Shown here: piece after piece, positions 14,561-63,300 of the stretch
How the letters are laid out: each line of letters begins with the position of its first letter
How positions within the stretch are numbered: position 1 is the stretch's first letter
Assembly: GCA_029260295.1 (NCBI GenBank)
Contig: JAJDDN010000008.1
Span: 62,001 to 126,000, forward strand
Reading direction: 5' to 3'
Length of the DNA: 64,000 bases
Origin: Phycisphaerales bacterium
GTDB lineage: Bacteria; Planctomycetota; Phycisphaerae; Phycisphaerales; UBA1924
The notes under the pieces: model-generated
What the model was told of the DNA's origin: nothing
Seen by the model: only the letters and a program-made list of their open reading frames with translations
The model's database searches: none
Translations under genes and position numbers: made by a program

Positions 14561-17500
14561 TTATGCTGCAGACGCTGATCGATTCGCATAGAAATCGATG
14601 AGTTCAATCAGCTTGGCTTTATCGATTGGCTTCGTGGCAAAGTCGTCACATCCGGCATCAATACATTTCTTCCGATCACTCGCCATCGCATGAGCAGTCA
14701 GGGCGATGATTGGGCCGTTGTATTGAGCCGAACGCAACGCGGAAGATGCTTCGTATCCACTCATGACCGGCATTTGCATGTCCATTAAGATGACATCGAA
14801 TGGGTTGCCATTGGATTGTGCAGCAAGGGCGGCATCGAGTGCAAGCTTTCCGTTTTCAACAACTTCAATACTCGCTCCGGCTTTCTTCAGAATGAATGTA
14901 AACAGTCGTTGGTTGTCCGGGCCGTCTTCGGCCAGTAGGATTTTGCAGTTAAGTTTTTTGATGACAGTTTTATCACAAAGTTTTTTCTCAGAACGATTAT
15001 TAATCATCTGGGCAGGGTTTTTGATCAGTTTGACATCATTTAGATTTGGTGATGCGATTGTGATCCGGAAAGTACTGCCTTGGCCACTGTTGCTAAAGAC
15101 TTCGATCGTGCCGCCCATCATTTCTGCAAACTTTTTGCTGATATCGAGTCCAAGACCGGTCCCGCCAAACTTGCGAGTTGTTGATGAGTCAGCCTGGGCG
15201 AATGCTTTGAAAAGCTGTCCAATTTGAGCTTTAGTAATCCCAATGCCTGTATCAACAACATCAATCTGTATCAAAGAGTTGTGTAGTTTGTCATTGGTAA
15301 AGCTTGAAACAATCTTCACGCTGCCATTTTCGGTAAACTTGATCGCGTTCCCGATGATGTTAACCAGAATCTGGCGTAACCGTGTTGGGTCGCTCTCAAT
15401 AATCTCTGGCAAGGATCCATTAAACTCCAGCTTGAGTGGTAACGATTTTTCGTTAGCACGAATTGTCATCAACTTTGTGACATCGGATACGAGTTCAATA
15501 AACGAAAATCGAACACATTCCAGTTCTACTTTCCCCGCTTCAATCTTAGATATGTCAAGGATATCATTGATAATTGTGAGTAGATGTTCGCCATTGCGTT
15601 TGATTGTGTCTATCGCATCTGAATTGGCGTTTTTGTTTCTGCATGAATCATCATTGACCACAATTGTATCAGCGAATCCGAGAATCGCGGTCATTGGCGT
15701 TCTGATCTCGTGACTCATATTGGCAAGAAAGTCACTTTTTGCTTGATTCGCATTCTCAGCTTCCTTGCGTGTAATTTCTAAATCTTGTGTCAGTGAGAAC
15801 AACTCGTTCCGCTGGTCTGTGAGCGAGTCATTTGCGACCAGGATTTGGGATTCTGATTCCTTCATCGCGGTGATGTCTGTACGAATTGCCACATAGTGAG
15901 TGATTTTCCCTTCACCGTTTTTAAACGGGACAATCGTTGCTCGCACCCAATACGCAGACCCATCCTTAGCCAAGTTCTTGATTTCTCCGGTCCAGACATT
16001 CTTGCTTGCAATCGTTTTCCATAGGTCGCGATAGAAGCGATGGTCGTGCTCGTCGCTCTTGATCATACGGTGATTTTGACCGATGAGTTCTTTTTGAGAG
16101 TATCCGCTGAGTTCAACAAACTTATCATTGACATAGGAAATAGTCCCTTGAATATCAGTAACTGAAACAATCGCATGTTGGTCCAACGCGTATTTTTGAT
16201 TGTTCAAATCAGCAAAGGACATCTTGAGATTCCGAATCATTGAGTTGAATGATTCAGCAAGGTCGCCGATTTCATCGTGCGAGGTGACATTGCAAGATTG
16301 GTCAAGATCGCCGTTGGCAATCTGAACGGCTATCGCAGAGAGATCAGCAATTGGTTGGACAACTCGACGAGAAGTGCGCTTTGCAATTAGGATCACCAAC
16401 AAACTTGTTGAAAGAATAATCCAGAGCATCAGATTCCTGAGTTTATCTGAGGAAGCGTACGCGATGTCTTCAGGAATTTCAGAAATAACACCCCAGTGAA
16501 TGCCGGCGATGGTAAGGTTTGCGTGGGTTCCTAGTACGCGGCCATTATTCTCATATGAAGTTGTATTCTCAGTATCCACTCCGCTCTGCGATCCGAGTTG
16601 ACCGTGTTCTGCAAGCCAGAGCTTAGCTTGAGGATTGTTGTCCTCGTTAACTGTTAAAAGATTTGGATGTGTGTTCGAACTCAGTTTCGATCGAACTGAA
16701 ACTCCATCGCCTACTTTGTTTGTTCCTACGATATATGAGTTTATACTGGTGTCATTAGAGAGCGAGCTTTTCGCTGCAAAATCAAGCTGCTCAGGCGACA
16801 GTTGGAATGCAAGTACCCCAATTTTCTCGCCATCGGAGTTCGAAATTAGTGTGCATAGGAACCCTGTCGCCTGACCGTTTGATGGCTTGTAAAATTCAAT
16901 GTCTGAGAACGATGTACGGCCGGTATTACGAGTCTTTATAAACGATTCAGAGAAAAGAGAGTTTGAATAGGTCCCTGTGAGCAAATTGGTTCCAAGGTCG
17001 TCCTCTTGCCCGTTGGTGTACAATATATTGCCTTCGAGGTCAATGTATAGAACATCATAGTATCCATACGATCGTTGGAAATTCAGGACATCTGGGCCAT
17101 GCTCATATGCAAGGTTGTTCCATTGGTAACTTCTTGTGAAGTCGGATAGATTTTGACCGCTATCGGTGTATGAGTCGCTGAGCTTCACCAGAAACGCGGT
17201 TGTATTCCAGTTCGATGCCAGCGTTTCGAGATCAAGAATTCTATTGCTGAACCAGTTTTCAATGAATGTAACAGTGTTCCGAACGCTCATGGTGAGTGAA
17301 TCACGCGCTGAATCATGGAGGCTGGCCTTTGCGGTGGTATAGCTCGCATAGGAAACCACTATCATTGGTATTAATGAGACCGCCAAGAATCGAACTAAAA
17401 GCTTTCCACGCAAACTGCGCTTTGTTCCACTGGTGGCGTGTTCATTAATGCCGGCAACTCTTTCTTTGCCAGATGCGGAATGAGTTGTGTTTTTAGTCAT
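14561..17500 (-). CDS. Hybrid sensor histidine kinase (Cache-HAMP-PAS-HK-REC)
   Basis: 979-residue membrane kinase. The order is a polar N-terminus, TM1 (about 37-55), a large periplasmic sensor (about 60-350) with a double-Cache look (YYDVLYIDLEGNILYTNG; HWGVISEI before TM2), TM2 (about 357-373), HAMP (to 430), PAS/PAC (about 436-545; YVNDKFVELSGYSQKELIG), HisKA with SHEIRTPM and His597, HATPase (N-box near 714-723, DTGIGI at 750-755, GGTGLGL at 779-785), and a C-terminal receiver (DVILMDMQMPVMSG) with phospho-acceptor Asp907 and Lys957. All catalytic residues are present. Its ATG overlaps the stop of the substrate-binding-protein gene (ATGA), so the two are translationally coupled. No separate response regulator or Hpt gene is adjacent, so the output is unknown. 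Confidence 0.93.
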   Translation of the reverse strand: MTKNTTHSASGKERVAGINEHATSGTKRSLRGKLLVRFLAVSLIPMIVVSYASYTTAKASLHDSARDSLTMSVRNTVTFIENWFSNRILDLETLASNWNTTAFLVKLSDSYTDSGQNLSDFTRSYQWNNLAYEHGPDVLNFQRSYGYYDVLYIDLEGNILYTNGQEDDLGTNLLTGTYSNSLFSESFIKTRNTGRTSFSDIEFYKPSNGQATGFLCTLISNSDGEKIGVLAFQLSPEQLDFAAKSSLSNDTSINSYIVGTNKVGDGVSVRSKLSSNTHPNLLTVNEDNNPQAKLWLAEHGQLGSQSGVDTENTTSYENNGRVLGTHANLTIAGIHWGVISEIPEDIAYASSDKLRNLMLWIILSTSLLVILIAKRTSRRVVQPIADLSAIAVQIANGDLDQSCNVTSHDEIGDLAESFNSMIRNLKMSFADLNNQKYALDQHAIVSVTDIQGTISYVNDKFVELSGYSQKELIGQNHRMIKSDEHDHRFYRDLWKTIASKNVWTGEIKNLAKDGSAYWVRATIVPFKNGEGKITHYVAIRTDITAMKESESQILVANDSLTDQRNELFSLTQDLEITRKEAENANQAKSDFLANMSHEIRTPMTAILGFADTIVVNDDSCRNKNANSDAIDTIKRNGEHLLTIINDILDISKIEAGKVELECVRFSFIELVSDVTKLMTIRANEKSLPLKLEFNGSLPEIIESDPTRLRQILVNIIGNAIKFTENGSVKIVSSFTNDKLHNSLIQIDVVDTGIGITKAQIGQLFKAFAQADSSTTRKFGGTGLGLDISKKFAEMMGGTIEVFSNSGQGSTFRITIASPNLNDVKLIKNPAQMINNRSEKKLCDKTVIKKLNCKILLAEDGPDNQRLFTFILKKAGASIEVVENGKLALDAALAAQSNGNPFDVILMDMQMPVMSGYEASSALRSAQYNGPIIALTAHAMASDRKKCIDAGCDDFATKPIDKAKLIELIDFYANRSASAA

Positions 17501-18690
17501 TCAGTCACCTTTTTACTCAGTTCTGCATCCGCGATATTGATATTTGTTGTAATTGAAGTTGAAAACTGATTGTCGGCAAAGGCATCAATATCAATCGTGG
17601 ACTCAAGGATGCCGCTTTCAACAGCATAATCCATAATCAACTTCAGCCCGGGGATATCAAGATTCAAGTTTTTGTAGTTGATCACATTGAGATCGGGGCG
17701 AAGGCTCTGGATAATGGCTTGCGGGTCGTGCGCAGGAATATGTTTGCGGATCATTGTGGTAATTTCATCGAGAGGCTCTCCGCCATCCACACGCGCATTT
17801 TCAATATCCAAACCAGCTTTATGAATATAGTAGATAACTTCTTTGAGGGCTTTATTTTTTTCAGCGATCGCCTGGTCTGTCGCAATGGCTATGCACTCTA
17901 CATGGCCGTTTGGCCAGACGATGACATCCTTTGAGTACCATGCCACATGCCCGTAGTTATTCGTTTCAACGACTTCGGCCCATGGGAGTGACTGCTCAAA
18001 TGCTGCTGGAACTGACCTGGCGTTATTTTTCTTCAGAAACGCTGGAGATTTATTTGGAGCTACTGCGATCGCTCGGACATGCGCCGGTTCCCCACGGTCA
18101 AGATCAAGAGTAAGGCCGTGATCTTTGAGATATTTATACAGAACTACAGTATGGGTCGCATGAAGCGAAGGCACTGCACAATGGATTGGTTCGCCACCGT
18201 TATCTTTTATGGACTTAATCGCTTCAATTAATGATTCGTCTGGAAGTCTTTGTGTTCTGGATTCGGGGAGTTGAATCATTTCGCTGAGAAGTTGATTGAC
18301 AGCCATCGCATTCCCATCCCGATGCATCAAGCTCACCCAGCGAAAGTTCTGGCGTTCATTGAACATGTCCATAGCCTGAGGGCTAATTATGTATGCCAAG
18401 TCCGCCCCTCCAGACATAAAATTACTCCGGAGAAGTGGCCAGCTTTTCATTTGTTCGATCTGATAATCAGCATGAACCATTTGATCGCGGTATTTTTCAT
18501 ATGCGATGATCCCGGCATAATGATCAGCAAGCGGGATATAGATGGATTTGATAACAGTCCTTGTATTGGATTCTACAGCTTCATCTGCTTGAGAATCTTT
18601 GGCGTTGACTGTACCGGTTGCAAGTTGAGAGATAATGCCTACACAGATCAGCCCAACTCGTGTTCGTTCTAATGGGTTGTTGGGTCTCAT
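17497..18690 (-). CDS. Periplasmic substrate-binding protein (NMT1/SsuA-like), sensor-linked
   Basis: 397 residues with an N-terminal signal (VGLICVGIISQLATGTVNA). The body resembles ABC-type solute receptors of the nitrate/taurine/thiamine-precursor (NrtA/SsuA/THI5) kind: IKSIYIPLADHYAGIIAYEK, MKSWPLLRSNFMSGGADLAYI (the G.aDia block), PIHCAVPSLHATHTVVLYKYL, and VVETNNYGHVAWYSKDVI with a late VECIAIATD. ATG 18690 is chosen because GGAG lies 10 bases upstream and the signal peptide follows; an upstream frame to 18738 exists. No ABC permease or ATPase is adjacent. Instead the gene overlaps the hybrid kinase by 4 bp. That makes it a likely ligand-presenting subunit of the sensor rather than a transporter part. 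Ligand unknown. Confidence 0.8.
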   Translation of the reverse strand: MRPNNPLERTRVGLICVGIISQLATGTVNAKDSQADEAVESNTRTVIKSIYIPLADHYAGIIAYEKYRDQMVHADYQIEQMKSWPLLRSNFMSGGADLAYIISPQAMDMFNERQNFRWVSLMHRDGNAMAVNQLLSEMIQLPESRTQRLPDESLIEAIKSIKDNGGEPIHCAVPSLHATHTVVLYKYLKDHGLTLDLDRGEPAHVRAIAVAPNKSPAFLKKNNARSVPAAFEQSLPWAEVVETNNYGHVAWYSKDVIVWPNGHVECIAIATDQAIAEKNKALKEVIYYIHKAGLDIENARVDGGEPLDEITTMIRKHIPAHDPQAIIQSLRPDLNVINYKNLNLDIPGLKLIMDYAVESGILESTIDIDAFADNQFSTSITTNINIADAELSKKVTE

Positions 18691-18743
18691 ATGATTTGTG
18701 CTCCAGTACGGAAACCAAGATGATTCACGACCCCACATGGGTC

Positions 18744-19166
18744 CACTGTTGATTTATCGAGCTATTCCAAGTCTTTTAATCGACACATTCATTCACTTTT
18801 ATAACTCATACCGACAACTTTTGAGAGGTTGTGAAATTTGCTCAATAATCCACAGATTTATCGCGGAGGGCCTTAATCATTTCTGCTGTCGCCTTTTAAA
18901 TGGTCCAAATAAATACACGAGGAGTATCCACGATTGGAGGAGTAAATCACTTGACACTTTGTTCAAGTCATACTCTGTGACTAGAATTCAAGATGAAGCC
19001 AGGTCGCGTTTTTGTGGTTAATATGGATTCAACTAGAAATTATTGAGCGACAGCCGATTCGATAGAAGCGGGCCTATGGGGGTAAAGCTCTAGATGCACA
19101 ATACCCGAATCTCGTGTTGATTAAACGGCCCCATGGTAGAGGTCGGACTCGGTTTTCAATGCAAAC
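18744..19166. other. Intergenic region between two minus-strand units
   Basis: No convincing gene in either strand. An inverted repeat GACCC-CACAT-GGGTC at 18729-18743 lies just upstream of this stretch and 39 bp before the substrate-binding-protein start; it could be an operator. The frame at 18698-19021 on the plus strand lacks a ribosome binding site and runs across that regulatory region. Confidence 0.35.
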
Positions 19167-19191
19167 GCCCCCGGCAATGAAAGCCAAGGGC
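19167..19191 (-). terminator. Possible terminator after the FG-GAP dockerin gene
   Basis: On the minus strand GCCCTTGGC-TTTCATT-GCCGGGGGC forms a 9 bp stem with two G.U pairs about 35 bp past the stop. The tail is only GTTTG, so it is a weak candidate. Confidence 0.4.
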
Positions 19192-19225
19192 ATTTGATCC
19201 TGTTTGGAATTTCTAGTTACTTAGA

Positions 19226-20506
19226 TCATGGGCATCCAGCGGCGAATAGAATCAGGAAGCTTGAGATGTCGAAGAAATCAAAGGCTCCGTCACCATTAAT
19301 GTCCGCAGCGGGTTGGCCCGTTGTGAAGAGCGACAAGAACTCAGCAATATCGAAGAAATCCAGTTCGCCCAGCGGGGCTGCAAAGTCCGCTGCGTTGCAT
19401 GCGGCTGCTCCGTTTGTGTTCATGAAGATCGAGACCGAGTTTGAATCGGTATTGGCAATCGCGATATCAGTTCCACCATTCCCATCAAGGTCTCCCACAG
19501 CAATGTTTCCTGGGGTAGCTCCGGTAGTAGAGACTACACCCGCGTTAAAGAGTCCCGTTCCCGTGTTCTCTAGAGTACTCATGCTGCTTGAATCAGAATG
19601 TGATGTGATTAGATCTACATCGCCATCGCCGTCGAGATCAGAGGCTGCGATCCCGCTGACATTCATCCCATTGACAAGTGTGTCAACGCGCCCACCCATC
19701 CCGGTGCCGGTGTTGAGCCAGACTGACGCAAAGTTCAGAACGGTATCGCTCGATGCAGCTGCGAGGTCAACAAGGCCGTCCCCATTGAAATCAGCAGCAA
19801 CCAAGCCGTCGGGCCGATTGGCAGCACTGACGGGTAAACCTTGAACAACAGAGAATCCTGATGCTCCAGAGTGGATATTTACAATCCGGTTGTCTTGATC
19901 GCTTACCGCAATATCAGCAATCCCGTCACCAGTAAAGTCCCCAATTGCTGTTGAACGAGGCTCGCCACCGCCAGCAAATGATGATGCTGTAAGTACGCCC
20001 GCCCCATTATTTATAAGCACGGTAATATCAGCACTGTCTCTATTGGCTACAGAAAAATCAGGGATGCCATCGCCATCCAGATCTCCAGAGGCGAGGTCTA
20101 CCGGGCGGCTCCCTACTCCAATGCTGGACCCGACGCTAAATGATCCACCGATGTTGATATATGTCCGTACCGAATCAATTCCTTTGAGAAGGACGACCAG
20201 ATCGAGATCCCCATCAGCGTCGATGTCTGCTGCGATAATATCATCGGATCCGGTGCCGGCTCCTGTTGGGATTGGTGTTGGTGTTCCAAGTACACCGCCT
20301 GAATTCAGGAAAACATTGATCTTGTCGAAGTTGTCTGCAGTGACAACCATATCAATATCACCATCGTTGTCAAAGTCTGCTAGTGCAACACCGCTTGGGC
20401 GTTCGCCCGCTGGGATCGGAGAATCGGCATCGAAGGCTGGTGCTGCCGAAGCAATCGAGCCCGCCAATGCCAGTAATATAAGCGGCGCTTTGTGTTGTGT
20501 CTTCAT
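19226..20506 (-). CDS. Secreted FG-GAP/VCBS-repeat protein with GC-type dockerin anchor
   Basis: 426 residues: signal peptide (APLILLALAGSIASA), then seven FG-GAP/VCBS-type repeats recognisable by their calcium loops (DFDNDGDIDMVV, DIDADGDLDLVV, DLDGDGIPDFSV, DFTGDGIADIAV, DFNGDGLVDLAA, DLDGDGDVDLIT, DLDGNGGTDIAI). Together they would build a beta-propeller. The C-terminus has two dockerin-like loops (LDFFDIAEFLSLF, DINGDGAFDFFDISSFLILF) and ends AAGCP, the planctomycete GC-type dockerin anchor. Such tails are thought to direct surface attachment by an uncharacterised route. AAAGGAC precedes the ATG. A near-consensus sigma-54 promoter sits about 80 bp upstream (20594-20609), next to the gene cluster of an NtrC-type activator. 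Biochemical function is unknown. Confidence 0.88.
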   Translation of the reverse strand: MKTQHKAPLILLALAGSIASAAPAFDADSPIPAGERPSGVALADFDNDGDIDMVVTADNFDKINVFLNSGGVLGTPTPIPTGAGTGSDDIIAADIDADGDLDLVVLLKGIDSVRTYINIGGSFSVGSSIGVGSRPVDLASGDLDGDGIPDFSVANRDSADITVLINNGAGVLTASSFAGGGEPRSTAIGDFTGDGIADIAVSDQDNRIVNIHSGASGFSVVQGLPVSAANRPDGLVAADFNGDGLVDLAAASSDTVLNFASVWLNTGTGMGGRVDTLVNGMNVSGIAASDLDGDGDVDLITSHSDSSSMSTLENTGTGLFNAGVVSTTGATPGNIAVGDLDGNGGTDIAIANTDSNSVSIFMNTNGAAACNAADFAAPLGELDFFDIAEFLSLFTTGQPAADINGDGAFDFFDISSFLILFAAGCP

Positions 20507-20593
20507 GTCTTTGTCCTTTGGGTTGTGTGTTTCACATTTATTGTAAATGTCGAATCGTTGGGTCAGAAACGATAAAGTTCGACATAAGACATA

Positions 20594-20609
20594 TACAAAC
20601 AGCGTGCCA
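20594..20609 (-). promoter_or_regulatory. Sigma-54 promoter candidate for the FG-GAP dockerin gene
   Basis: Read on the minus strand the site is TGGCACG-CTGT-TTGTA. The consensus is TGGCACG-N4-TTGCW. The -24 element matches at all seven positions, the spacing is exact, and only the C of the -12 GC is replaced by T. The predicted start is near 20583, giving a leader of about 77 nt to the ATG at 20506. Confidence 0.6.
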
Positions 20610-20647
20610 GTATGATCGGACGGTTTAGGTCGTCTTCTCTGAGTGTG

Positions 20648-20697
20648 TGGCCAAACACTTGGCCAGCCCGGATGCTTCTGGTGTTAATATTGGCCAT
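20648..20697 (-). promoter_or_regulatory. Cluster of TGGCCA sites, possible activator-binding region
   Basis: TGGCCA occurs at 20648-20653, 20660-20665 and 20691-20696. The first two form an inverted repeat; the third lies in AATATTGGCCAT. Relative to the sigma-54 start predicted near 20583 they sit at about -67, -79 and -110, within the range used by NtrC-type enhancer sites. The same AATATTGGCCAT 12-mer recurs upstream of the pseudopilin gene. Confidence 0.45.
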
Positions 20698-20734
20698 ATA
20701 TCCACGGCAATAGTTCAGGATGTAGATGTTTAGA

Positions 20735-22195
20735 TTACGGGCAGCCTTGGGTGAACAAGGTGAGGAACGCAGAGATGTCAAAGAAGTCCCAGCTGTTGTC
20801 GTTGGTGAGATCTGCTTGAGAGTCTTGGGAGGTGAAAGCATTCAGGAATGCGAAGATATCAAAGAAATCAAGCACGCCGTCTCCGGTGAAATCGGGGATG
20901 CACGGAAGAGCTGGGAAATCAGCGGCTGACACTACGCCGTCGTAGTTCAGATCATAGAAATGAAACTCGAACGCAAAAGATGGGGTCCCAATCTGATCGT
21001 TAATGGCTGAGTCGCTGTCAATAGAAGTGCCATCATTGTCATTGATAAAGTCTTGGACAACTTGGATGTCGTTGCTTGTAACCAGATCGTCGAAATCGAA
21101 ATCCGCATATGACTCATCGAAACCGGTGTCCGTCCATATATAAAAGGATAAAGGTTGCGGCGTAGTGGGGGCGGTTCCGATCAGAGCGGTTACAGACCAC
21201 CTGGATGGATCGCGATAATCAGTTCTGTCATTCCCTTGCCAGTTTTCGGTGAGGATGCCCAGGTCCCCTGATGTGAAGCTGGCACCAATGATTAAATCGT
21301 CGAGTGCTTCCTCGATAGAAGTATGGTTTAATGATGTTTCCAAATCGATGGGTTGTTCAGGCTCATTGGCAGCCAAAGCTGCCCCCGCATTGGTAATTTG
21401 ATACACAAGCGTAACTGTTGTTTGATCAAAAATAGGGTCGTGCACGAACTGGAGTGTAGTGATCGGATCGAAGAGGCCAAAGTCGGATCCGCCAAACAAA
21501 AAACTTTCTGGAAGGAAGGATTCAAATCGTTCGAAGAACCTTCCCTCAACAATCCAGGACTCGCCCCAATCAAAGAGTGAATCCATATTGCCGTCTTGCG
21601 AAACTATTGTTGGGGCAAAGCATCCGCACATAATGAGTGTGAACTCTGATCCTGTTTGTTCAAAGGTTGGTCCACTGAAAAAATCTCCGTCAAAGTCATT
21701 GCCGCTCTGGACCATGCGTTCAGCAATTGAGCCGGTCGGGTGTAATCCAAACCGGCCGACATTCGCAAGATATCTGCTGCGGGCTATGGGCATGAGTTCT
21801 CCGCCCGAGTTCTTTTGGTCATCAATGTCCAGTTCGATAAAGCCGGTAATTGGTCGATCGCCAAACTGGTAGGGATTGTAAGGGAATCCGTTTAGACCGA
21901 TGGGGCCGGGAGGGGAAACCAGGCCGTCAACAACTATTTGTATTCTGACAAAGTCGGCATCGCCTTGTATGATCGATCCGGAATACAGGTCGGTGCTGGG
22001 TGAGACAGGCATCCATCCATCGAGTGAAACTGATAAGAGATCAATCGGATCAAATCCCGCGGGGAGTGGGGCGTCATTGCCAATGTCAGTACGACGAACC
22101 ACGGCATCCCCTTGAGGATCAGTCCAGATATTCTGTGCCAAAGTAGTCTGAACAGAGAAGCATAAAATCAGAATCAAAGAAGGTATAGATCTCAT
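20735..22195 (-). CDS. Secreted protein with GC-type dockerin anchor, coupled to a two-component system
   Basis: 486 residues with signal peptide (MRSIPSLILILCFSVQTTLA). The main body begins IWTDPQGDAVVRRTDIGND and continues with DPIDLLSVSLDGWMPV. I recognise no named domain; it has the look of an all-beta extracellular module. Near the C-terminus are calcium-loop segments DLNYDGVVSAADF, DFTGDGVLDFFDIFAFLNAF and NSWDFFDISAFLTLF, then the terminal QGCP, the GC-type dockerin anchor. The ATG overlaps the stop of the NtrC-like regulator gene (ATGA at 22192-22195), so a surface protein is translated from the same message as its probable regulator, an uncommon arrangement. Confidence 0.85.
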   Translation of the reverse strand: MRSIPSLILILCFSVQTTLAQNIWTDPQGDAVVRRTDIGNDAPLPAGFDPIDLLSVSLDGWMPVSPSTDLYSGSIIQGDADFVRIQIVVDGLVSPPGPIGLNGFPYNPYQFGDRPITGFIELDIDDQKNSGGELMPIARSRYLANVGRFGLHPTGSIAERMVQSGNDFDGDFFSGPTFEQTGSEFTLIMCGCFAPTIVSQDGNMDSLFDWGESWIVEGRFFERFESFLPESFLFGGSDFGLFDPITTLQFVHDPIFDQTTVTLVYQITNAGAALAANEPEQPIDLETSLNHTSIEEALDDLIIGASFTSGDLGILTENWQGNDRTDYRDPSRWSVTALIGTAPTTPQPLSFYIWTDTGFDESYADFDFDDLVTSNDIQVVQDFINDNDGTSIDSDSAINDQIGTPSFAFEFHFYDLNYDGVVSAADFPALPCIPDFTGDGVLDFFDIFAFLNAFTSQDSQADLTNDNSWDFFDISAFLTLFTQGCP

Positions 22196-23643
22196 GATTG
22201 ACCAACTCTCGGATCAGAAGTAACAATTTCATATCTCTCAACACGATACCGGAAGCTCGACCGTTGCATCCCGATTAGCTTGGCGGCTTTGGATACATTC
22301 CCATTGGAATGCACAAGCGCCTGAATCATGAGTTCACGCTCTACAGCAGCAGCAGTATGGCCGCCCGAATGGAAGTCGAATCGAAGGGAACCATCACTGT
22401 GATCGGAGTTGTTCTGGGATTCATGAGGTCTTCCAGTATGGATCCCCAAATCTGCAATCGAGATGATGTTGCTCGAAGCGAGCATCGCTGCTCGTTGAAC
22501 AGTGTTGAAGAGTTCACGGACATTGCCCGGCCACCGGTGCCCGCAAATCATTGCCTTGGCCTCTTCGCTCAGCGACGCTGGGTCCATGCCATATTCGATA
22601 CGGAGCTGGTCGAGCATTGATTGGGCGATCAGAACGGTGTCTTGGCCTCGGTCTCGGAGAGCGGGGAGTGGAATGGCAAACGCGTTAATTCGGAACAAAA
22701 GGTCTTCTCGGAAGAGGCCGTCTTTAACCATTGATTCAAGATCTTTATTCGTAGCCGCAAGCACACGCATACGGACAGGGCGTTCCTTGGTCGCGCCAAC
22801 TTTGCGGATCAAGCCGTGCTCAATGACAGAAAGAAGTTTAGATTGTAGTGAGAGATCAAGGTCGCCGATTTCATCGAGGAATATAGTGCCCCCATCGGCC
22901 ATTTCAAAGAGGCCCTCGCGTGTTGCCTTGGCATCAGTAAACGCGCCCTTCTCGTGTCCGAACAACTCAGATTCAATTAATGATGCGGGTAATGCGGTGC
23001 AGTTGACATGGACAAAGGGGAGGCTGTGTTCTGGGCTAGAGTCATGTATATGCCGGGCAACGACGCCTTTACCAGATCCTGTTTCACCTGTGATCAAAAT
23101 AGTTGTCAGCGCGCCGCCGCTGGATTCATTGAGATCGTGAGAACGGTTCAATACTGGTATTTGTGCAAGCCGTTCCGCCATCGTAACGGCATCAACCCAA
23201 GCCGGGGATTTACCGAGCGGTTGACGGGATTTTTGTGATGTTTTGTCGAGTCGTTGGTAGAGACGCAATCGGCGGGTTTCGGATTGTTGTTTGATGACTC
23301 GATCGGTAATAAGCAGCAGCTCTTGAAGGCGGACGGGTTTGGCAAGGTAATCGTCAGCTCCAAGCTTCATTGCCCGCACGGCATCATCAACAGTCGCAAA
23401 GGCGGTCATCATGATGATCCCGCCGGCATACCCAGACTCTCGGACTTCCTGAATGTAATCAATTCCCGATTCCGATCCGAGGTTGACATCAGAGAGGATC
23501 AAATCGAAGTGTTCAGCTTTGAAGGCTTCTCGTGCCGATTTGATTGAACCGACCGCGCAGACCTCGTGGCTGTGCTTATTGAGAGCCCGGCCGACTGTCA
23601 GCCGTAGGTTCTCGTCGTCTTCTATGAGCAGAATATTGGCCAC
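22192..23643 (-). CDS. NtrC-family sigma-54-dependent response regulator
   Basis: 483 residues: receiver domain (1-120, phospho-acceptor Asp52 in DLILSDVNLGSESG, KPVRL for the conserved Lys), AAA+ domain with Walker A GETGSGKG (186-193), sigma-54 contact loop GAFTDA (233-238; GAFTGA is the textbook form and the Asp variant is found in natural members), Walker B GGTIFLDEIGD (251-261), and a C-terminal Fis-type helix-turn-helix (GNVSKAAKLIGMQRSSFRYR). It starts with GTG behind AAGGGG, 37 bp after the partner kinase gene. It should activate sigma-54 promoters when phosphorylated. Candidates are the sites upstream of the pseudopilin gene and of the FG-GAP dockerin gene. Confidence 0.93.
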   Translation of the reverse strand: MANILLIEDDENLRLTVGRALNKHSHEVCAVGSIKSAREAFKAEHFDLILSDVNLGSESGIDYIQEVRESGYAGGIIMMTAFATVDDAVRAMKLGADDYLAKPVRLQELLLITDRVIKQQSETRRLRLYQRLDKTSQKSRQPLGKSPAWVDAVTMAERLAQIPVLNRSHDLNESSGGALTTILITGETGSGKGVVARHIHDSSPEHSLPFVHVNCTALPASLIESELFGHEKGAFTDAKATREGLFEMADGGTIFLDEIGDLDLSLQSKLLSVIEHGLIRKVGATKERPVRMRVLAATNKDLESMVKDGLFREDLLFRINAFAIPLPALRDRGQDTVLIAQSMLDQLRIEYGMDPASLSEEAKAMICGHRWPGNVRELFNTVQRAAMLASSNIISIADLGIHTGRPHESQNNSDHSDGSLRFDFHSGGHTAAAVERELMIQALVHSNGNVSKAAKLIGMQRSSFRYRVERYEIVTSDPRVGQS

Positions 23644-23680
23644 TTCATCCCCTTAATGGCCACTACTGGCCGGGTCGCTC

Positions 23681-25156
23681 TCAAGCCCTGTCTGTTGGAT
23701 CTACTGGAATTCTAAGTGTAAAGGCACATCCAGCTTGCTGAGCATCATTTAATGGCGATTCAACTTCAATCAGCCCATTATGCTGATCAATCACCCGCTG
23801 ACACATTGCAAGTCCGATGCCAGTTCCTGATTGGCGTGTAGTGAAGTATGGACGAAAGATCGTCCGATGCAAGTCTTGTGGGATCATCGCCCCCGCATTG
23901 GCGATCCGAAGGGTCCAATAGGCCCTTTGGTTATCGGCAGTTTGGTTGATCCTGATCTGAACGGTCGTTGAAGTGGGGGCAAACTCAACCGCATTGCTTA
24001 ATATCGATGTAATCGCGTGTTCGAGATGGTGGGCATCACCAATCGCCTTTTCGGGCGGGTCCTCAGCGGAGTAGTCAAATGTCAAGCCGTTGGCCTCGCC
24101 GGCACTGCGATGCGCATCAACAACCGAGTCAACAAGGCTTTGGGGACAGTACTCTCCCAGATGCAGTTCTAGCGGAGACGAGGTACGGAGCATCTCCTTG
24201 AGCCAGTTCTCGAATCGATCAACAGTTGAGATAATCCGCGATTGTAAGTCTCTCAGATCAGAGCTGGGTTCGAGTTCATCAAGTGTCGTTTCCGACAACG
24301 CCCGTATGCCCGCCAGCGGCGTCCGAAGATTGTGAACAGTCCTCTGGGCCATCTCGCCCATTGCGGCGAGGCGTTCTTGCTCAATCTTTCGGCCTTGCAT
24401 CTCACGAATCAAAATGCCCATACGATTAAACTCATCACTAAGCTGTCCCAGTTCGTCGTTTGTGTGAACAGAAATTGGCTGATCAAAGTTGCCCTGGGAC
24501 ATCCGCTGGGCACCAGCTCTGAGCCGTTCGATTGGAGAGAATACCCAGCGACGGATGAACAAAACCATGAGTAGCCCAATCGCAAGCGCTCCAACAAGAG
24601 TCACCAGAATAATCGAATACATCCGAGTCTTGAGCCCTTGGCCAAAGTCCGCCGCAAGCTGGGCGTCATCAAGAATTCGCCCCTCGATCCGTTCGATCAG
24701 TTCGTGCCTTGCATCAATGAGCTCGATTAAATGTTGTCCGTCAGAGTCGTCGAGTGAATCAACCCACTTCAGATTGGCGTTCTTAATGAGTTGAGATCTC
24801 GAACGCATGTTTTGAATTGTGGTGATCCCAGACCGCAGCATCACAGTCGGCAGTGAATCCAGTTCGTCAACCATCAGGTTGATGCTGCTCTCAATCGTTG
24901 TGAGTTCCAAACTCGTTTGGTGTACAGTTGCTGGGTCAGATTTGCTTTGGGCTATGGCTTGTGAGATGAGATCAATCTCATTCTCTCCGGATCTTTTGAT
25001 CTCAAAGAGCCGGTGCATGACCAGTTCCATTGATCGCAGCGGCAGGGAGAGTTCCTGCTCAAGAAAGCGGATGCTCCAGACGCTGAGCCCAACATTTGCG
25101 ATAAGAGTTGATATGAGTAGGGCAAGAACAATAGAAAGCTTTGTTCTGAGCTGCAT
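23681..25156 (-). CDS. Sensor histidine kinase, partner of the NtrC-type regulator
   Basis: 491 residues: TM1 (about 6-28), a helical periplasmic segment (29-180) predicted to be a four-helix-bundle-type sensor, TM2 (181-201), HAMP (about 202-255), a dimerisation helix with His275 in RTVHNLRTPLAGI, and an HATPase domain with DLHRTIFRPYFTTRQSGTGIGLAMC near the end. The N-box region (HAITSILSNAVEFAP) is present. The H-box departs from the usual SHExRTP form but keeps His and RTPL. Its ATG lies 4 bp after the pseudopilin stop and the regulator gene follows, so this is a cognate pair resembling PilS/PilR. The sensed signal is unknown. Confidence 0.92.
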   Translation of the reverse strand: MQLRTKLSIVLALLISTLIANVGLSVWSIRFLEQELSLPLRSMELVMHRLFEIKRSGENEIDLISQAIAQSKSDPATVHQTSLELTTIESSINLMVDELDSLPTVMLRSGITTIQNMRSRSQLIKNANLKWVDSLDDSDGQHLIELIDARHELIERIEGRILDDAQLAADFGQGLKTRMYSIILVTLVGALAIGLLMVLFIRRWVFSPIERLRAGAQRMSQGNFDQPISVHTNDELGQLSDEFNRMGILIREMQGRKIEQERLAAMGEMAQRTVHNLRTPLAGIRALSETTLDELEPSSDLRDLQSRIISTVDRFENWLKEMLRTSSPLELHLGEYCPQSLVDSVVDAHRSAGEANGLTFDYSAEDPPEKAIGDAHHLEHAITSILSNAVEFAPTSTTVQIRINQTADNQRAYWTLRIANAGAMIPQDLHRTIFRPYFTTRQSGTGIGLAMCQRVIDQHNGLIEVESPLNDAQQAGCAFTLRIPVDPTDRA

Positions 25157-25160
25157 GGCT

Positions 25161-25946
25161 TTAGTTCACAGGCTGGTAATCCCAGCGCCATCCCGATTCT
25201 TTTGCTGGTGCAGAAGACGAAGCGACATGCCCATCCATAAAGGCGACATTGGCCCGTCCGTTGTGCCGCTTTCCTGGGAACCAGACCCGGTCGCCGGCAT
25301 ATGGGCCCAGCGAATCAAGAGATGGTCCAGTATATATTGGTGAGACACCGAGCTCAAAGGCCCGTTGGCCATCGACATCAAGCATCAGCGGGACACTAGA
25401 ATGCTGAAGGATCGATGACCCAAGCTTCACGAGTTCGGCCCTTGGTCTGCCGTGTGAATCAATGACTTCCGCGCGATTGAGCCGGGCATTGAATCCGAAT
25501 GACACGCTCTGGGGCGGGCTTACAGCTCCACTGCTGCAGGAAAAATTATTCCGGAGTACCAAAGGTTCTCGCACGCTCGGGCACCGCATCGGATCGCCCC
25601 CGTCGGAATCCGGTGTTTCATGGGCCGATGAATCGTCCCCCCATCTCCAGAACTCATCAACTCCATATTGGCTTTCCTGAAAGGTTTCAATCTGAAAGAG
25701 GCGGCCACCTTCGTCATCGCCTCGGTCGCCGTGGAGAAGATCGTCTGCAAAGAGTTGGAAATCAAACGCGACGGTACGCTGCGCCATCGAGCACTTAAAC
25801 TCGCGTGCGCGTTCGATCGAACTGGCCAGCATCGGAGCCATGATACCGATGAGCGTTGCGATGACTCCCATGACAACAATCAACTCGATCAGTGTAAACC
25901 CAGATCGAGCCCGAAGTTGGCAAATATGTGAACGGTGCGATTTCAC
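25161..25946 (-). CDS. Type II secretion/type IV-like pseudopilin with H-X9-DG motif
   Basis: The prepilin cleavage site is unmistakable: RARSG^FTLIELIVVMGVIATLIGI, with Glu at +5 and a hydrophobic helix. The C-terminal half contains HNGRANVAFMDGH, the H-X9-DG motif of a planctomycete/lentisphaerae class of secreted pseudopilin-like proteins. GTG 25946 gives a 16-residue leader, as expected for prepilin peptidase substrates; the frame stays open to an ATG at 26057, which would give an unusually long 53-residue leader, so the true start is uncertain. The gene is first in a five-gene-long minus-strand cluster (kinase, NtrC-type regulator, two dockerin proteins). A pilin-like gene beside a kinase/NtrC pair recalls pilA-pilS-pilR. 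Confidence 0.8.
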   Translation of the reverse strand: MKSHRSHICQLRARSGFTLIELIVVMGVIATLIGIMAPMLASSIERAREFKCSMAQRTVAFDFQLFADDLLHGDRGDDEGGRLFQIETFQESQYGVDEFWRWGDDSSAHETPDSDGGDPMRCPSVREPLVLRNNFSCSSGAVSPPQSVSFGFNARLNRAEVIDSHGRPRAELVKLGSSILQHSSVPLMLDVDGQRAFELGVSPIYTGPSLDSLGPYAGDRVWFPGKRHNGRANVAFMDGHVASSSAPAKESGWRWDYQPVN

Positions 25947-26083
25947 GGGTAGATAATAACAGGAATTGCGGGCTAGTAAATGCAAACATGAAGATCTTGC
26001 GAATAAAAAAATTCGCAGAACCAATTCGCGTTGAGATTCACAAGTATTCATGTGCATGCGGAGTATCGAGTGGAAGTCAAATT

Positions 26084-62745: not shown

Positions 62746-63300
62746 TCAGCCCTTGGCCGCTCTTTTGAAATCTCGGATTAATGACCGGTTTTTGAGCCGC
62801 GACATATGGGACATCTTGTCCAGAATCATGATCCCATCAAGATGGTCGATCTCGTGCTGCCAGCACCGTGCCATGAGCCCGGTGCCCTGGAGCTTGACGG
62901 TATTCCCATCAAGATCCATCGCCTGCATCGTCACGGTCGTCGGCCGCCGCACCTCGCCGGTCAGATCAGGCAGCGACAAGCACCCCTCGTCGTACGGTTC
63001 CATGTCCTTGGAGAACTCAATAATCGTGGGATTCAGGAAAACCTGGTACTCCTCAGACGAGCACGGGATCTCGGCATCGACCGGATCATCCTCATGGATC
63101 GGCACATGGGCCACAAACAGCCGCCAGCTCAGCCCCACCTGCGGAGCCGCCAGCCCGATCCCCTCGGCCTCACGCATCAGCTCGACCATCCGAGCCGCGA
63201 CGGCCCGGGTTTCATCGTTGGCCTCGATCTCCCTGCCCTTGGTCCGCAGGACCTTGGTCGGATAAATCTCGATACTGAGTTTGGCTGGATCTACGCTCAT
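62746..63300 (-). CDS. def: Peptide deformylase
   Basis: 184 residues from ATG 63300 (the frame extends to 63360). Motif 1 GIGLAAPQVG, motif 2 DEGCLSLP (Cys ligand) and motif 3 CWQHEIDHLDGIMI (two His ligands and catalytic Glu) are complete. It removes the N-formyl group from nascent proteins. First of the def-fmt-metallopeptidase operon; the next gene diverges upstream. Confidence 0.95.
   Translation of the reverse strand: MSVDPAKLSIEIYPTKVLRTKGREIEANDETRAVAARMVELMREAEGIGLAAPQVGLSWRLFVAHVPIHEDDPVDAEIPCSSEEYQVFLNPTIIEFSKDMEPYDEGCLSLPDLTGEVRRPTTVTMQAMDLDGNTVKLQGTGLMARCWQHEIDHLDGIMILDKMSHMSRLKNRSLIRDFKRAAKG

Follow-up and report, generated by a model that had tools for sequence, protein, structure and literature searches.

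The element at positions 20594 to 20609 of the window (the whole stretch of 64,000 nucleotides that was analysed) is, with high likelihood, a sigma-54 promoter of P1, the gene for an exported FG-GAP repeat protein with a C-terminal dockerin_GC domain. Judged from sequence comparisons, it would be driven by the histidine kinase HK and the NtrC-type activator EBP through GGCC dyads, with EBP being autoregulated and acting on few targets in trans. The motif is very probably a genuine, evolutionarily preserved switch under the control of this nearby two-component regulator. The genome appears to use several switches of this kind, mainly for exported proteins. The features of the locus are collected in Table 1.

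Table 1. Features of the P1 promoter region and the activator operon (positions in the window)
Feature	Position	Strand	Basis
P1, exported FG-GAP repeat protein with C-terminal dockerin_GC domain, 426 aa	19226..20506	minus	ORF and domain searches
Stem-loop at the predicted 5' end of the P1 transcript, TCTGACCC in the loop	20547..20585	minus	Folding and orthologue comparison
Predicted transcription start (G)	20583	minus	Inferred from spacing to the -24 GG
Sigma-54 -24/-12 promoter of P1, TGGCACG-CTGT-TTGTA	20594..20609	minus	Motif search and conservation in 9/9 orthologues
Enhancer-like dyad TGGCCA-AGTGTT-TGGCCA, proposed activator binding site	20648..20665	minus	Sequence comparison
Third TGGCCA half-site upstream of P1	20691..20696	minus	Sequence
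P2, exported dockerin_GC protein, 486 aa	20735..22195	minus	ORF, domain and structure searches
EBP, NtrC-type response regulator (Sigma54_activat, HTH_8), sigma-54 loop GAFTDA	22192..23643	minus	Domain search and alignment
TGGCCA that overlaps the EBP start codon, possibly explained by coding	23637..23642	minus	Sequence
Dyad CGGCCAGTAGTGGCCA upstream of the EBP start, putative operator for autoregulation	23657..23672	minus	Sequence comparison
HK, histidine kinase (HAMP, HisKA, HATPase_c)	23681..25156	minus	Domain search
PIL, pseudopilin-like (N_methyl and H-X9-DG C-terminus), first in the conserved gene order	25161..26057	minus	Domain search, locus comparison

The sigma-54 site upstream of P1 and its conservation

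Read on the minus strand, positions 20609-20594 are TGGCACGCTGTTTGTA: the -24 block TGGCACG is exact, the 4-nt spacer gives the exact spacing of the two elements, and the -12 block is TTGTA instead of TTGCA, leaving a single mismatch (C to T at -12) to TGGCACGNNNNTTGCA. The site lies 87 nt upstream of the P1 ATG. The original prediction of a near-consensus sigma-54 promoter in front of the FG-GAP dockerin gene, complete at -24 and missing only the C at -12, was correct in sequence, strand, coordinates and spacing, and it gained support from the sites found at all P1 orthologues detected in the genus. It did not cover the enhancer-like sites, the leader hairpin, the GAFTDA loop or the conservation of the deviation at -12. 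The sigma-54 gene rpoN, which that prediction presupposed, is present in a single copy (E 9.7e-60); among the 61 genomes searched, the window's included, rpoN was found in 60, and the exception is a genome that is 56% complete.

In the window, 40 sites matched TGGCACGNNNNTTGCA with at most three mismatches, fewer than in shuffled sequences (64.4), and only two of these had one mismatch, the second being TGGCACGGTGCTGGCA at 62858-62873, within an ORF. In the genome-wide scan of both strands (2.91 Mb), the exact pattern TGGCACGNNNNTTGYW (TGGCACGN4TTGYW) was found only twice, at P1 and before the HSP70 gene dnaK, but with one mismatch allowed the 46 sites barely exceeded the 38 of the reversed pattern. 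TGGCACGNNNNTTGYA occurred 102 times over the 61 genomes (control 27) and 39 times within the 21 genus genomes (control 7). Motif counts by themselves do not prove the P1 site, and conservation was therefore used as evidence.

P1 orthologues (full-length-type matches with at least 59% identity) are encoded in nine of the 21 genus genomes, including the window's, and the best named relatives of P1 are Phycisphaerales assemblies. All nine carry the site, 87-104 nt from the ATG, although their shared ancestry means that these are not nine independent events. Seven sites are exact TGGCACGN4TTGTA, while G003 has TGGCACGCCGTGTGTA and G020 has TGGCACCGTGCTTGCA; thus the -24 element is TGGCACG in eight and TGGCACC in G020, and the -12 element is TTGTA in seven (the window among them), GTGTA in G003 and TTGCA in G020. 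When the sequences were anchored at the site, mean pairwise identity was 0.94 in the 12 motif columns and 0.54 in the spacer, and it was 0.29 in either flank (70 nt upstream, 20 nt downstream). The 267 other gene starts in the activator loci that were fetched served as a control; six of them had a site with at most one mismatch, and these six include two dockerin genes, one P1 cut by a contig end and one 140-aa exported protein. The off-consensus T at -12 was retained in eight of the nine orthologues, whereas TTGCA stands at the dnaK and rpoN sites in the genome of the window; the deviation therefore looks selected rather than decayed.

EBP contains a receiver, an AAA+ sigma-54 interaction domain and a Fis-type HTH. 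The loop GAFTDA replaces GAFTGA in all 29 EBPs compared (the window's and 28 fetched orthologues). It is listed as a variant that keeps activity in the available text on Desulfovibrio (PMC4641369), and for Dickeya VfmH, which likewise has GAFTDA, the accessible part of PMC10714721 reports a pull-down in which no sigma-54 was found. EBP orthologues share 61-79% identity in 15 other genus genomes and 44-53% in 13 fetched loci from further genera. The activator gene had been described as lying right beside the site; it is nearby but does not adjoin it, since the dockerin_GC gene P2 (20735-22195) intervenes and overlaps the activator gene by 4 nt. Both P1 and P2 score above the curated cut-off of the dockerin_GC model NF041540 (38.8 and 44.2 versus 29 bits), with the domain at the C-terminus. 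The gene order PIL-HK-EBP-P2 is recurrent, and a P2-like ORF follows EBP in 27 of the 28 fetched loci; locus ORFs were picked mechanically, so that some starts are wrong (e.g. L067, L072, L078), P2 was left unsettled in L078, the one remaining locus, and PIL or HK were unpicked in some. P1 adjoins the EBP operon or its P2, in two orientations, in eight of the nine genus genomes having P1; the contig of G005 ends inside P2 and P1 of G020 is located elsewhere.

The P2 family is exported and kept beside the activator gene across the order, with a C-terminus that varies between lineages (dockerin_GC, another dockerin or arginine-bearing tails). For the N-terminal part of P2 no Pfam family was found, Pfam giving only weak dockerin or EF-hand matches, and its structure model (pLDDT 76.8, pTM 0.70) matched no solved structure in the PDB at E<=0.001. 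Downstream of P1, on the same strand, positions 14561-18738 hold a second sensor system, an NMT1-like protein followed by a large PAS/HisKA/receiver hybrid kinase.

Enhancer-like dyads and candidate targets in trans

Upstream of the P1 site, two TGGCCA half-sites lie 12 bp apart. Within 200 nt upstream of the 46 sigma-54-like sites of the genome, at least two TGGCCA were present in five cases, one in one case and none in 40. Besides that of P1, these five are the sites of a 141-aa exported protein, a VTC-domain gene and two dockerin_GC genes; in the same interval TGGCCA was absent at the sites of dnaK, rpoN, clpB-like, clpC-like and FlgE/F/G-like genes, and likewise upstream of the dnaK sites in six other genomes. 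TGGCCA pairs with a spacing of 5-35 nt occur 21 times in the genome (two overlap), compared to 5 for the control pattern. Four distinct pairs, that of P1 among them, lie 39-73 nt before sigma-54-like sites, with 0.043 expected if placement is uniform (Poisson P ~1e-7). Since it was the P1 alignment that drew attention to TGGCCA, P1 does not count as independent; when it was left out, three coincidences remained against 0.043 expected, P ~1e-5 under the same assumption of uniform placement. In the window TGGCCA is about twofold more frequent than uniform composition predicts (31 versus 15.6).

A related dyad, GGCCN6GGCC with GGCCAGTATTGGCC as its commonest letters, precedes the EBP start by 28-30 nt in 15 of the 16 genus genomes, the exception G012 having GGTC; among other gene starts it was seen at 3 of 150. 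Beyond the genus it was present in G028, G026, G034 and PLA8 and absent from the other ten loci compared from further genera. Six of the nine P1 promoters have the dyad with at most one mismatch, G019 has only a form with two mismatches, and within two mismatches it was not found at the P1 promoters of G005 and G020. In G019, the variant half-site GGGCC/GGCCC occurs both at the EBP start and at the P1 promoter. The N6 dyad is not enriched genome-wide, with 16 matches versus 15 for the control in the window's genome (one mismatch) and 15 versus 11 over the genus (exact). The enhancer is assigned to this EBP on account of the dyad before the EBP start and the variant shared in G019. TGGCCA-type sites common to P1, the EBP start and some other sigma-54-like sites thus support the earlier claim of a regulatory link that goes beyond proximity.

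Alternatively, the sigma-54 promoter could be real, with TGGCCA being bound by a different activator or a general regulator of exported proteins, and EBP controlling something else. The genome encodes at least five EBP-like proteins including this EBP (five matches at E<=1e-60), and some dockerin genes have TGGCCA pairs upstream but no sigma-54 site; other promoters, too, may respond to the pair. We consider this explanation rather unlikely, however, as it leaves unaccounted for the dyad at nearly every EBP start of the genus, its common variant in G019, and the sigma-54-like site and hairpin that are kept beside the EBP operon of two genomes in which P1 has no match. Dockerin_GC genes of this type are L152 (C4:55043) and L358 (C8:259649), both with a TGGCCA pair upstream and without a recognisable sigma-54 site; G008 has one such gene, and G018 has one with a site of three mismatches only.

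Read-through from the PIL-HK-EBP-P2 operon as the main source of P1 expression, with a minor part for the sigma-54 site in the window's strain, is quite unlikely. P2 and, 228 nt behind it, P1 are codirectional, and no minus-strand terminator was found between the two in a scan of 18700-20800, an arrangement that suits read-through. P1 is placed downstream of P2 also in G019, G005 and in part G028, but it is divergent from PIL in G018, G002, G006, G009, G003 and PLA8 and lies on another contig in G020, and the site accompanies it in every arrangement. PLA8 shares the gene arrangement and has a one-mismatch site, with GGCCN6GGCC at both the EBP start and the P1 promoter. A mere chance resemblance, a single good 12-position match in 64 kb overread because of the nearby activator gene, is exceedingly improbable: the near-control number of one-mismatch sites, about 32 of which lie inside mechanically picked ORFs of at least 80 aa (two overextended gene starts left out), would allow it, but not the retention of the site at a similar distance from all nine orthologues, between flanks of such low identity and in differing gene arrangements.

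With an EBP-dependent P1 promoter as the preferred reading, candidate targets in trans can be named. In six more distant genomes (G021, G039, G043, G051, G055, G059) the sigma-54 site that diverges from the EBP operon stands before the gene of a 140-aa exported protein in place of P1; it has one mismatch in G055 and G059 and is exact in the other four. The homologue in the window's genome (C3:264848-265270; E 3.7e-17 for one of the six proteins, 5.8e-6 to 7.4e-5 for five) has the one-mismatch site TGGCACGCGAGATGCA together with a TGGCCA pair, and among further homologues that of G002 has a one-mismatch site and that of G006 a two-mismatch site. The VTC-domain gene L019 (C6:168590) likewise combines a TGGCCA pair with a sigma-54-like site; near it, the Porin_O_P-like gene L018 (C6:167042) has its own sigma-54-like site without TGGCCA.

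Other sites were noted as well. An exact consensus lies 72-85 nt before dnaK in seven genus genomes (L002 at C3:82000-82015, L131, L132, L134, L139, L141, L143), dnaK being identified by Pfam HSP70 for L002 and by a matching N-terminus for the remaining six. One-mismatch sites precede clpB-like (L031), clpC-like (L024) and FlgE/F/G-like (L006) genes and rpoN itself (L023). The 2.9-Mb genome of the window (G000) contains 98 dockerin_GC matches over the curated cut-off, or 105 including weaker ones. The idea that the whole dockerin_GC set forms a sigma-54 regulon was rejected: after the 7 matches below the cut-off had been left out, a start-proximal site with no more than one mismatch was present in 3 of 98, including P1, compared to 0.40 expected. 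A recurrent TGGCATCGGACTTGCA-like match in the HK gene of many relatives was discarded as coding, presumably for the G-I-G-L-A box of the kinase ATPase domain.

The conserved leader hairpin

The predicted start is the first G of a conserved stem-loop. CTGACCC was found in the P1 leader of all nine orthologues, and the flanking arms can pair despite differing between genomes. In eight leader arm pairs, 94.4% of positions were paired compared to 68.7% after shuffling, a percentage biased upward because the arms were chosen by hand; the arms covary, with 15 double-changed cells versus 4.0 after shuffling. The lowest-energy fold shows the proposed hairpin in seven of the nine leaders, the exceptions being G018 and G006, and in G006 the automatic stem search chose a different stem. 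Taken singly, most leader stems are weak: between 2 and 53 of 100 shuffles scored at least as high as the observed stem.

The site followed by CTGACC was detected at the P1-type locus in ten genomes, eight with P1 plus G013 and G016; elsewhere it gave 11 matches in eight genus genomes versus 7 for the reversed control. In G013 and G016, which have no P1 match, the sigma-54-like sites read TGGCACACCCCTTGCG and TGGCACACAGTTTGCT; both genomes also have a hairpin with TCTGACCC ahead of a terminator-like hairpin. G013 has an exact TGGCCA pair and G016 a single TGGCCA. The ORFs listed at these two loci revealed no obvious shared protein, and the element is possibly a small RNA, or else a remnant. 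The loci without a P1 match in the genome are L071 (5476) and L073 (5417, both in oriented coordinates), with the sigma-54-like site, the CTGACCC hairpin and the terminator-like hairpin in both and the enhancer pair in L071 only. An Rfam search of 20400-20760 gave nothing, and GGGTCAG, sought as a pairing target of the loop, had no consistent place in 16 genus loci.

A further reading, which we hold only tentatively and find somewhat doubtful, is that the P1 promoter makes a conserved regulatory RNA. The CTGACCC-loop hairpin would then act itself and might survive without P1 as a sigma-54-driven small RNA in G013 and G016, alongside an EBP regulon mainly of exported proteins and with the C-to-T change at -12 of P1 under selection.

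The proposed circuit and known systems

Most likely, the membrane kinase HK would respond to some cue from the envelope or surface by phosphorylating EBP. EBP would then bind the GGCC-type dyads (TGGCCA pairs), hydrolyse ATP and open the sigma-54 polymerase at the -24/-12 element. The dyad centre is about 73 bp upstream of the predicted start in the window, compared to about 150 bp in several relatives. The resulting P1 mRNA would start around 20583 with the CTGACCC stem-loop and encode the exported FG-GAP protein, of beta-propeller type, with its dockerin_GC C-terminus. EBP presumably also binds GGCCN6GGCC just before its own start codon, the simplest reading of which is autoregulation, whichever its direction. 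In trans it may activate a few genes, namely those of the 141-aa exported protein, the VTC-domain protein and two dockerin_GC proteins.

The promoter itself is an ordinary kind of element, well verified, and the interest lies in the circuit, the enhancer code, the trans targets and the leader RNA. From a single motif match emerges a testable circuit for selective exoprotein expression in an uncultured planctomycete lineage with about 100 dockerin_GC domains, which supplies a predicted binding site (GGCCN6GGCC or TGGCCA pairs), trans candidates, a predicted start and a conserved leader RNA. Our literature search found no paper joining dockerin, sigma-54 and planctomycetes, and none on GC-type dockerin.

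Several partial parallels exist. The NtrC-family EBPs of Desulfovibrio vulgaris resemble the present case in comprising many two-component EBPs, GAFTDA among their variants and some ncRNA targets, but the portions of PMC4641369 at hand describe neither dockerin targets nor a GGCC dyad. The planctosome of freshwater Nemodlikiaceae is likewise a planctomycete cohesin/dockerin exoprotein system, whose regulation is not described in the available sections of PMC6461901. Chaperone genes are predicted to be under sigma-54 in Planctomycetota in the accessible text of PMC12316311, which matches the dnaK and clpB-like sites found here. Regulons predicted across bacteria present sigma-54 as a controller of the cell exterior (PMC12316311, PMC3162934), with dockerin genes or EBP-specific sites not being described in the extracts available from these two sources.

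The closest known scheme is the PrsK-PrsR sigma-54 circuit of the PEP-CTERM/EpsH system, as far as the available text of Haft et al. (2006, PMC1569441) describes it; RpoN dependence has been reported for pepA in Aquincola in the corresponding part of PMC9850573. Common to both are a histidine kinase with an NtrC-type activator, exported and C-terminally sorted proteins, and an enhancer motif followed by a -24/-12 site, at a mean of 71 nt from the start codon there and 87-104 nt here. The targets here end in dockerin_GC, whereas those of PrsK-PrsR carry the PEP-CTERM signal; model searches of P1 and P2 matched dockerin_GC and no PEP-CTERM model. EBP scores 316.2 bits against the PrsR model TIGR02915, under its cut-off of 502.6, and with targets that lack PEP-CTERM the present circuit thus works like PrsK/PrsR without being a member. 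Sites are far rarer among the sorted-protein genes here (3 of 98) than in the part of PMC1569441 concerned (99 of 167), and unlike PrsK-PrsR the present circuit adds a pseudopilin-like gene and P2 to the gene order and a conserved 5' hairpin to the P1 mRNA. The comparison suggests that sorted surface proteins of Planctomycetota are served by sigma-54 together with a two-component system, in much the same way as those of PEP-CTERM bacteria.
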